A stretch of DNA of 64,000 nucleotides from Gemmataceae bacterium. GTDB taxonomy: Bacteria; Planctomycetota; Planctomycetia; Gemmatales; Gemmataceae. Below, in pieces: positions 4,070 through 45,683 of the stretch. Within the stretch, counting starts at the first letter, position 1. Every line of letters begins with the position of its first letter. A program made the translations under genes and the position numbers. A model generated the notes under the pieces. It was given only the letters and a program-made list of their open reading frames with translations. It ran no database searches and was not told where the DNA came from. The stretch is from the NCBI GenBank assembly GCA_009692065.1, contig SHZY01000003.1, forward strand, positions 1 to 64,000, in the 5' to 3' direction.

Positions 4070-5092
4070 ATGCAAACTACCATCGCCTGCCTGACCGCGC
4101 CCGGCAAAGCCGCCATCGCCACGCTGGCAGTGCGCGGGCCCCAGGCATGGGCGATTACGCTTGCGCACTTTATGCCCCGCAAGGGAAGCCTGCCCGACAC
4201 TCCGGACGCGGGACAATACTGGTACGGCAGGCTCGGCAACGAACTGGCCGACGACGTCGTCCTTGCGGTCAAGCAAGGCTTGCCGACGATCGCACTGGAA
4301 GTGCACTGCCACGGCGGCGTCGAAGTCGTGCGCATGATTCAGGAACTCTACCTGGAGCACGGAGCCATCCTGTCTCCCTGGCAAGATGAGACGAACGGCC
4401 TTTTCGAAACGCTCGCACACGCTTCGACAGTGCGCACCGCCAACATTCTGCTCGACCAGGTCAGCGGGGCCTGGCAAGTTTGCATGAGGGAACTGGCAGA
4501 CCCAGATCCGGTTCGCGGCACGCAGGTTCGCCAACGGCTCGCGGAGCTGATTCCGCTTGGCCAGCACCTCGTCGAGCCGTGGCAGGTGGTGATCGCCGGC
4601 GCGCCCAACGTTGGCAAGAGCAGCTTGATGAACGCGCTCGCCGGCTACACGCGCAGCGTCGTCTCGCCGAGCGCGGGGACGACGCGCGATACCGTCGCGC
4701 TGCGGCTCGCGATCGACGGGTGGCCCGTGGAAATCACCGACACGGCAGGCATTCGCGCAGCGACGAACGACCTGGAATTACAAGGCATCGAACGCGCTCA
4801 GAGCGTGGCACGCGATGCCGACCTGCGCCTATGGTTGCTGGATGGTTCGACGGGGCCAATATTTCCCGATGACCCGGTCGGCTGGCATTTTCTCATCAAC
4901 AAGATTGATCTGCCCGCGGCCTGGGATTGGCAAAGTCTACCGGAGGCGCTGCGCATCTCGGCACGCACACAGACGGGATTGACGGAGCTCTGCGAGATGA
5001 TTTCGCGTCAATTGGTGCCGCAGCCACCGTTGCCAGGCGAAGCGGTGCCAGTTACAGCGGAGCAGGCTGCCCTGGTGGGTAAAAAACGTTAG
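4070..5092 (+). CDS. MnmE/TrmE-like GTPase, short form
   Basis: TrmE-like N-terminus (TIACLTAPGKAAIATLAVRGPQAW) and GAPNVGKSSLMNAL, TTRDT, ITDTAGIR, NKID motifs; 340 aa, no terminal C-x-G-K. Confidence 0.85.
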   Translation: MQTTIACLTAPGKAAIATLAVRGPQAWAITLAHFMPRKGSLPDTPDAGQYWYGRLGNELADDVVLAVKQGLPTIALEVHCHGGVEVVRMIQELYLEHGAILSPWQDETNGLFETLAHASTVRTANILLDQVSGAWQVCMRELADPDPVRGTQVRQRLAELIPLGQHLVEPWQVVIAGAPNVGKSSLMNALAGYTRSVVSPSAGTTRDTVALRLAIDGWPVEITDTAGIRAATNDLELQGIERAQSVARDADLRLWLLDGSTGPIFPDDPVGWHFLINKIDLPAAWDWQSLPEALRISARTQTGLTELCEMISRQLVPQPPLPGEAVPVTAEQAALVGKKR

Positions 5093-5389
5093 CCAGACAC
5101 GCAAGTTTTGAAGCTGCGATTTTCTTGCCCCGAAGGGGCCTAACAAACCAGCCCAGGGCAACGCCCTGGGAAAGCGGGCAAAAACGAATCTAGCCCTGTA
5201 AGGGCGGCACAACCGTATGCGACATATGTAATGCCCTTTCAGGGCAACTACACCTTGGGCCTGACGCGAACCCAGGGCGTTGCCCTGGGCTGGTTTGTTG
5301 TCGCACCTTCGGTGCTCCCAATAAATCGCAACTTCAAAACGCGCAAGTGACGGACTAATGAGTCCGTCGCTTGCGCGTCCGGCTAACGA
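5087..5389. mobile_element. Fold-back (MITE-like) element without an ORF
   Basis: Nested inverted repeats: cgttagccagacacgcaag / cttgcgcgtccggctaacg; ttttgaagctgcgattt / aaatcgcaacttcaaaa; aacaaaccagcccagggcaacgccctggg / cccagggcgttgccctgggctggtttgtt. Confidence 0.85.
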
Positions 5390-5400
5390 GCGAGCGGGCG

Positions 5401-5883
5401 TCAATGTGCGTCGTGCCCGCCCATTTGTTCGGTCAGGTAATTCTGTAGGCCGACCGCTTCGATCAGGGCAAGCTGCGTTTCCAGCCAATCGACATGCTCT
5501 TCCGATTCGACCAGGATCGGCGCCAGCAGCTCGCGCGAGCCGTTGTCTTTCACCTTCACGCACAACTCGATGGCGGCGTTGTAAGTATTCACCCCCCCCA
5601 TCTCCAGCTTGAGATCGTTCTCGAATTGCTCTTTCACATTGGTGCCGACGCGGATCACGTCGTAGCGGGCAATCTCCGGCGTGCCGTCCAGGAACAGGAT
5701 GCGATCGATCAGCTTCTCGGCATGCTTCATTTCGCCCATGGATTCTTCGTAGTGCTTCTTGCCGAGCAGCTTGTAGCCCCAGTTCATGCACATCTTGGCC
5801 TGGCAGAAATATTGGTTGATCGCGGTCAATTCGATGGTGAGCGCGCGATTCAATGCGTCAATGACTTGCGGGTCGCCTTTCAT
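5401..5883 (-). CDS. bfr: Bacterioferritin
   Basis: MKGDPQVIDALNRALTIELTAINQYFCQAKMCMNWGYKLLGKKHYEESMGEMKHAEKLIDRILFLDGTP; ferroxidase-type residues. Confidence 0.96.
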   Translation of the reverse strand: MKGDPQVIDALNRALTIELTAINQYFCQAKMCMNWGYKLLGKKHYEESMGEMKHAEKLIDRILFLDGTPEIARYDVIRVGTNVKEQFENDLKLEMGGVNTYNAAIELCVKVKDNGSRELLAPILVESEEHVDWLETQLALIEAVGLQNYLTEQMGGHDAH

Positions 5884-26015: not shown

Positions 26016-26073
26016 GTTAGCCGAACGCGCAAGCGACGGAATTAATGACCCGTCGCTTGCGCGTCCGGCTAAC
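26016..26073. repeat. Palindromic element GTTAGCCG...CGGCTAAC
   Basis: gttagccgaacgcgcaagcgacgg / cgtcgcttgcgcgtccggctaac; matches the outer arms of the 5087-5389 fold-back. Confidence 0.9.
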
Positions 26074-26133
26074 GAGTTGTCTACAAATACAATAGGAGGA
26101 ACGATTTCAGGATGCACGACGGAGACCCGCACG

Positions 26134-44993: not shown

Positions 44994-45683
44994 TTTTGCC
45001 CCGAAGGGGCCGCGACAAAACAGCCCAGGGCAGAGCGCAGCGGCGTTAGCCGCGCAGCGTCGCCCTGGGTTGGAACACCGCCAAACGCGAAGCCCTGAAA
45101 GGGCGAAACAAAATGCGAGGGGAGCATGTCACAATCCCTGGTCAAGAACTTGCTCCACCTCGTGTTCAGCACCAAAAGCCGCATGCCCTGGATTGTGCCC
45201 AACGTCCGCGAACGTCTCTACTCGTACCAGGCGGATATTCTCAAGGAGTGGGACAGTCCCGCGTTGGTGATCGGCGGTGTCGAGGACCATGTGCATGTTT
45301 TGTTCGCGCTGTCGAAGAATCATCCGTTGAAGAAGATCGTCGAGGAGGTCAAGAAGGGGAGTTCGAAATGGATGAAACGCGAGGGAACGGGCAACGCCGA
45401 TTTTTATTGGCAGAACGGATACGCGGCGTTTTCGGCAAGCGTGTCGAATGTGGACGCAGTCAAACAGTACATCCAGAATCAGGAGGAGCATCATCGTAAG
45501 ATGATGTTCCAGGATGAATTGCGGGTGTTATTTGAACGACATCAGGTCGTGTTTGATGAGCATCATGTTTGGGATTGACGATTTGTTTTGCCCTTTCAGG
45601 GCGTGGCGTTAACGACGCCAGAATACCCAGGGAGGCGCTGCGCTCTGCCCTGGGCTGATTTGTTTAGCCCCTTCGGGGCAAGG
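44994..45683. mobile_element. IS200-like transposon with ~100-bp imperfect inverted flanks
   Basis: ttgccccgaaggggc...acaaaacagcccagggcagagcgcagcg...gccctgaaagggcgaaacaaa at left is repeated inverted at right (...tttgttttgccctttcagggc...cgctgcgctctgccctgggctgatttgtttagccccttcggggcaa). Confidence 0.85.
45126..45578 (+). CDS. IS200/IS605-family Y1 transposase
   Basis: KNLLHLVFSTKSRMPWI, VEDHVHVLFAL (HUH), FYWQNGYAAFSASVSNVDAVKQYIQNQEEHHRKMMFQDE. Confidence 0.93.
   Translation: MSQSLVKNLLHLVFSTKSRMPWIVPNVRERLYSYQADILKEWDSPALVIGGVEDHVHVLFALSKNHPLKKIVEEVKKGSSKWMKREGTGNADFYWQNGYAAFSASVSNVDAVKQYIQNQEEHHRKMMFQDELRVLFERHQVVFDEHHVWD

Follow-up and report, generated by a model that had tools for sequence, protein, structure and literature searches.

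REPtrons and their REPINs make up the RAYT, or TnpA-REP, system (Bertels and Rainey, 2011, PMC3116915; PMC2817692; PMC6006769), in which a single, vertically kept Y1 gene is flanked by inverted hairpins, short gene-less inverted pairs of these hairpins are dispersed in large numbers, and gene copies that move by themselves are missing. Hairpin feet other than GT[AG]G exist and are subclass-specific, and TnpA-Y1 proteins of subclass 1.2 are low-copy and generally lack terminal hairpins (PMC6006769). Work on TIRtrons, or TIRYT genes (Di Nocera et al., 2013, PMC3733652), describes a Y1 gene enclosed by long inverted repeats, which are partly self-complementary and make up repeat families, and reports that the planctomycete R. 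baltica has many tyrosine transposase genes with repeats at their flanks. IS4 subgroups generate target duplications of 7-13 bp (PMC2266710), and the IS4-family element ISRm22 is confined to REPs, which it enters at a fixed point (Tobes and Pareja, 2006, PMC1525189).

Here we analysed positions 5087-5389 of a window, the whole 64,000-nucleotide stretch of DNA under study, from a Gemmataceae bacterium (contig SHZY01000003.1). An earlier note on the window had described these 303 bp as ORF-less nested inverted repeats, and our analysis agrees: no gene or ORF was found inside 5087-5389, five inverted-repeat pairs lie nested one in another so that nearly all of the stretch is palindromic, and the single-stranded fold reaches -112 kcal/mol compared with -53 +/- 4 in shuffles (z = -13.7). 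The resemblance to the arms of an IS200-like element at 45 kb, on which the note had based a single non-autonomous derivative, is colinear for about 5121-5320 and stops there; nothing at 45 kb corresponds to 5087-5120 or 5323-5389, which belong to two other repeat families, so the 303 bp do not mark the boundary of one element. They consist of three distinct, separable repeat families stacked in one another, with a REP hairpin enclosing a MITE and the MITE enclosing Y1-type hairpin arms (Table 1). The locus is very probably best explained as a composite of three repeat elements: the REP hairpin, a MITE with DDE-type ends and a REPIN-like inner element.

Table 1. Coordinates of the three layers of the locus and of the related features elsewhere in the window.
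Feature	Positions	Strand	Basis or remark
Left piece of interrupted REP hairpin (CGTTAGCCAGACACGCAAG)	5087-5105		Joined to 5348-5390 rebuilds a 57-60 bp hairpin
Left 8-bp target duplication, CACGCAAG	5098-5105		7/8 bases identical to 5340-5347
Middle unit, MITE, 17-bp terminal inverted repeats TTTTGAAGCTGCGATTT / AAATCGCAACTTCAAAA	5106-5339		Same ends in G016 IS4-like element
Inner unit, two mirrored three-hairpin arms, gene-less	5127-5315		Colinear with 45-kb arms
Hairpin A, GCCCC-GAA-GGGGC	5127-5139		Local stem kept by compensatory change, 36 copies
Hairpin B, GCCCAGGGCAACGCCCTGGG	5151-5170		Inverted-repeat search and alignment
Hairpin C, GCCCTGTAAGGGC	5193-5205		Alignment and copy comparison
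Hairpin C', GCCCTTTCAGGGC	5233-5245		Alignment and copy comparison
Hairpin B', CCCAGGGCGTTGCCCTGGGC	5271-5290		Inverted-repeat search and alignment
Hairpin A', GCACC-TTC-GGTGC	5303-5315		Stem unlike A, yet fully paired
Right 8-bp target duplication, CGCGCAAG	5340-5347		Pairs with 5098-5105
Remainder of interrupted REP hairpin	5348-5389		Joins with 5087-5105
Solo uninterrupted REP hairpin (L103)	26016-26074		Match to rebuilt hairpin
Left three-hairpin arm of Y1 element	44998-45113		Alignment
Y1 HuH transposase gene, 150 aa, RAYT-like in behaviour	45126-45578	+	PF01797, E 1.6e-23; NF033573
Right three-hairpin arm of Y1 element	45590-45679		Alignment

The modules of the inner unit follow one another in the order A, spacer, B, C and then C', B', spacer, A', as they do in the two arms at 45 kb, and the loops and spacer (ACAAAYCA/TGRTTTGT) also match those of both arms. 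Local alignment with the 45-kb arms gave a score of 94 (mean 18.9, sd 2.8, max 36 in 300 shuffles), indicating colinear homology rather than shared hairpins alone. About 26 gene-less copies of the inner unit were counted in the window's genome (G000), several of them cut at contig ends, a lower bound given that 40 of 71 candidates were scored in the DNA search and that the genomes are drafts. Across 36 copies, transposase arms included, 352 of 360 positions in the A and A' stems are locally paired, even though A and A' are unlike each other in 22 of the 36; the stem types vary (GCCCC, GCACC, GGCCC, AGCCT) around a constant GAA loop. Each small hairpin is therefore maintained on its own, as would be expected if a single-strand-binding protein reads the hairpins. 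Preservation of the fold-back through long-range pairing of one arm with the other was rejected, since A and A' often differ and each is paired locally.

The inner unit also stands without the middle unit (L009, L020, L022, L184), and the inner-only copies L148, L175, L176 and L184, which retain no trace of the MITE ends, group as one clade close to the arms of the transposase. A tree of inner parts, with weak deep support, implies at least four changes of the middle layer. No site missing the inner unit alone was found, so that a jump of its own is not directly visible.

The protein encoded at 45126 carries the motifs DHVH, W-Q and YIQNQEEHH (Y---Q--HH), the signature of TnpA-Y1 subclass 1.2, whereas RAYTs have Y---NP, and we therefore refer to the inner unit as REPIN-like and not as a RAYT REPIN. 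Instead of a multi-copy insertion sequence, 45126 proved to be a single, vertically kept gene: the window's genome contains one close copy, and in sister species the gene lies upstream of the same downstream gene (synteny at genus level). Two remote Y1 proteins in the window's genome are flanked by other hairpins, each gene lying within long hairpins of its own (L033, G000:C183, GCGAGCCTCCCGCGTAAGCGGGGGGAGG; L034, G000:C239, AGCCCAGGGGTGAGGTACTCCGAACCCCTGGG). The orthologue of 45126 is intact in G000 and G003, has stop codons between two retained arms in G006, is reduced to a C-terminal fragment in G004 and to a right-arm relic in G002, and has left nothing at the syntenic site in G001. Matches to a 17-base arm motif follow this decay from intact to erased (G000, 43; G003, 11; G006, 11; G004, 4; G002 and G001, 0), a natural series in which repeat number tracks the state of the gene. 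The motif had one further match in G005, an incomplete genome, and one mismatched match in G027, where a related arm of that genome itself carries the sequence; elsewhere among the 41 genomes there was none, and the reversed control gave 0. The arm motif is thus found almost only in genomes with a gene of the 45126 lineage or its remains. AATGTTAAAGCCCAGGGC, a motif of another transposase lineage, has a different and sparser distribution.

Mirrored hairpin arms, lineage-specific in sequence, flank nearly all planctomycete relatives of the 45126 gene in many genera, so that subclass-1.2 Y1 proteins, described as generally without hairpins, gain a clear repeat partner across Planctomycetes. By analogy, the 45126 gene and the inner copies behave like a REPtron with its REPINs, in a Y1 type reported without such structures. 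Unlike REPINs of about 100 bp, the inner unit has three stacked hairpins per arm and spans about 190 bp, and no GTAG or GTGG foot was noticed beside A, B or C in an unsystematic reading of the copies. TIRtrons share with the 45-kb element a Y1 gene within long, partly self-complementary inverted repeats, but nesting in a DDE MITE within a REP is not part of their description in the TIRYT sections of the source (PMC3733652). Non-autonomous elements of IS200/IS605 are likewise gene-less relatives of a Y1 HuH gene that has hairpins at its ends; in IS200/IS605, however, the subterminal hairpins are unlike each other, whereas the arms here are symmetrical and mirrored, and 45126 is present as a single copy that shows no sign of moving. 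To our knowledge, typical IS200/IS605 elements have neither terminal inverted repeats nor target duplications, a rule that may not hold for Y1 subclass 1.2, and the whole 303 bp has both. A 71% identical transposase, with gene-less elements on both sides, was seen on a contig labelled as a Pedosphaera parvula MAG (Verrucomicrobia; L065), either through lateral transfer or in a mislabelled bin.

Adjoining the inner arms on the outside are TTTTGAAGCTGCGATTT and AAATCGCAACTTCAAAA, within the 234-bp unit whose ends read TTTTGAAGTTGCG/CGCAACTTCAAAA (also given as TTTTGAAG...CTTCAAAA); neither these repeats nor the REP pieces occur in the 45-kb element or in its orthologues. Eight is the sole direct-repeat length that stands out at the flanks of 34 MITE copies, 10 of which have exact 8-bp repeats and 19 at least 7 matches, compared with a mean of 6.1 copies when flanks were re-paired (19 was reached in 0 of 20000 trials); the 34 copies are not fully independent, as they include orthologues or near-duplicates (L146/L147, L154/L159, L223/L226). 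The remaining 15 have no clear duplication, several of these showing inverted instead of direct flanks, and the duplication around 5106-5339 itself carries one mismatch. L010 and L016 have near-identical inner parts within different exact duplications (AGCGCAAG and CTTGCGCT), which indicates that the composite can move as one unit.

In G016, a related genome, ends identical to those of the MITE enclose an element of about 1 kb, seen at about 20 places; at least 17 of these copies contain an IS4-like DDE gene (PF01609, E 6e-11; spacing Y-2-R-3-E-6-K; element ends TTTTGAAGTTGCGC). The middle unit thus shares terminal inverted repeats with a DDE element and has target duplications of a fixed length, 8 bp, as an IS4-family MITE would. 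This candidate autonomous partner is known from G016 alone, and the window's own genome, 94% complete, yielded no IS4-like gene with MITE ends. Like ISRm22, the system pairs an IS4-like transposase of YREK spacing with insertion at a fixed point of a REP; its ends, however, begin TTTTGAAG and not CA or CT as in IS4-family elements that insert in REPs, and here the element is a MITE whose cargo belongs to another repeat family. Most of the inspected G016 copies (L222-L227 and L240-L258, with TTTTGAAGTTGCGCTTTTT ends) lie beside or in REP-like hairpins; two of the inspected copies are flanked by long, perfect inverted sequences and not by direct repeats. The MITE ends also enclose other interiors (L116, L182, L190, L228-L239), comprising AT-rich fold-backs and unrelated DNA in G004, G006 and G017 and, at L116, L182 and L190 (G000:C42, C11, C148), a second inner family with GCCAGGGGCGCAAGCCCCTGG arms. 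At L236 (G006:C33) and L237 (G004:C69) the ends of the IS4-like carrier lie beside a coding stretch resembling an IS630-type transposase (SPNLNLIERVWKFVKAE), so that the carrier may also hold other transposons. We rejected the idea that the middle layer is merely a target palindrome of the inner element, as the copies show 8-bp duplications and a search of the window's own genome at one mismatch turned up no middle palindrome standing alone.

The MITE sits at a fixed point of the REP stem. Joining the flanks at 5087-5389 restores an intact REP hairpin (GTTAGCCGGACGCGCAAGCGACGG-loop-CCGTCGCTTGCGCGTCCGGCTAAC), a short palindrome that occurs uninterrupted and extragenic at 13 other loci of the genome, all inspected, one of them in the window; the joined flanks of other copies in G004 likewise align over the junction to solo hairpins. 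The only polymorphic site found is L153 in G006, for which the orthologous site L321 in the close relative G004 is without the entire stack, in a spacer too changed to show a single clean step. The insertion into the REP stem is of DDE type.

From these sequence comparisons we infer two mobilisation steps and the enzymes behind them. A REP hairpin would first have been located between two convergent genes, and a MITE with IS4-like DDE ends would then have entered its stem, duplicating 8 bp of it, with the REPIN-like inner element either already aboard or received later. By analogy with RAYTs and REPINs, the 45126 protein or an ancestor may recognise and move the inner hairpin arms as single-stranded DNA. 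For the 234-bp unit, the latest move would have been in double-stranded form, catalysed by a DDE enzyme at the terminal repeats of the unit, with the inner element travelling inside it. Mobilisation in trans by 45126, as proposed in the earlier note, is plausible for the inner part, given the co-occurrence of gene and repeat and the REPtron-like behaviour, and the reading of that part as a gene-less relative of the 45126 element is supported; neither extends to the whole unit, whose latest jump bears the marks of a DDE transposase. Tentatively, and with somewhat less than even confidence, we suggest a two-engine unit, in which a HuH REPIN-like element uses its own single-strand route and also travels inside an IS4-like MITE with a preference for REP stems as its target, several REPIN families having settled independently in the same carrier.

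It is rather unlikely that the hairpin arms are simply the interior of a DDE MITE and resemble the Y1 arms because a Y1 gene was once captured in such a fold-back, with no role of the Y1 protein in its spread. The joint movement of the composite seen at L010 and L016 would fit, and the inner-only copies could be remnants whose ends were lost; yet these end-less copies group near the transposase arms, Y1 genes of many other planctomycete genera have mirrored three-hairpin arms of lineage-specific sequence, and conservation acts on local hairpins and not on long-range pairing.

Two genes converge on the composite: an mnmE-like GTPase gene (4070-5092), whose stop codon (5090-5092) is supplied by the first bases of the REP arm, and, on the minus strand, a ferritin-family gene (5401-5883). 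The GTPase gene is short, at 340 aa, and apparently near the usual length for the genus. Truncation by the insertion is not supported: homologues in sister species stop at nearly the same point, with differences that range from a few to about 27 residues, so that the gene was at most trimmed. Retention of the structure for a function as an RNA or DNA signal, for instance as a bidirectional terminator of the two genes, with its mobility a matter of history, appears quite improbable: the position and the strong fold would suit such a role, and REPs often lie downstream of genes (PMC3733652), but an Rfam scan of the 64-kb window returned zero family matches, the inner unit occurs at about 26 unrelated places, and at one of the G006 places the whole stack is missing from a close relative. 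A single fold-back MITE of the 45-kb IS200-like element, mobilised whole in trans by the 45126 transposase, is very improbable, for although the arms are colinear and co-occur with the transposase lineage, the inner part is surrounded by 8-bp duplications and by DDE-type ends identical to those of the IS4-like element, and the 45-kb element and its orthologues have neither MITE ends nor REP pieces.

The composite of REP hairpin, MITE and REPIN-like element shows how deep bacterial palindromes can form stepwise, each new element inserting into a hairpin stem that is already there. It also calls for caution, as what looks like one fold-back can consist of several elements, each with an engine of another kind. 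At L172 (G006:C18), L231 (G004:C15), L146, L147, L154 and L159, REP and MITE lie inside a larger palindrome with GTGCTTTATCAACGCTTAATTTTCGGG ends and TA flanks, giving four or five nested levels, and this outermost palindrome looks like an IS630/Tc1-type MITE.
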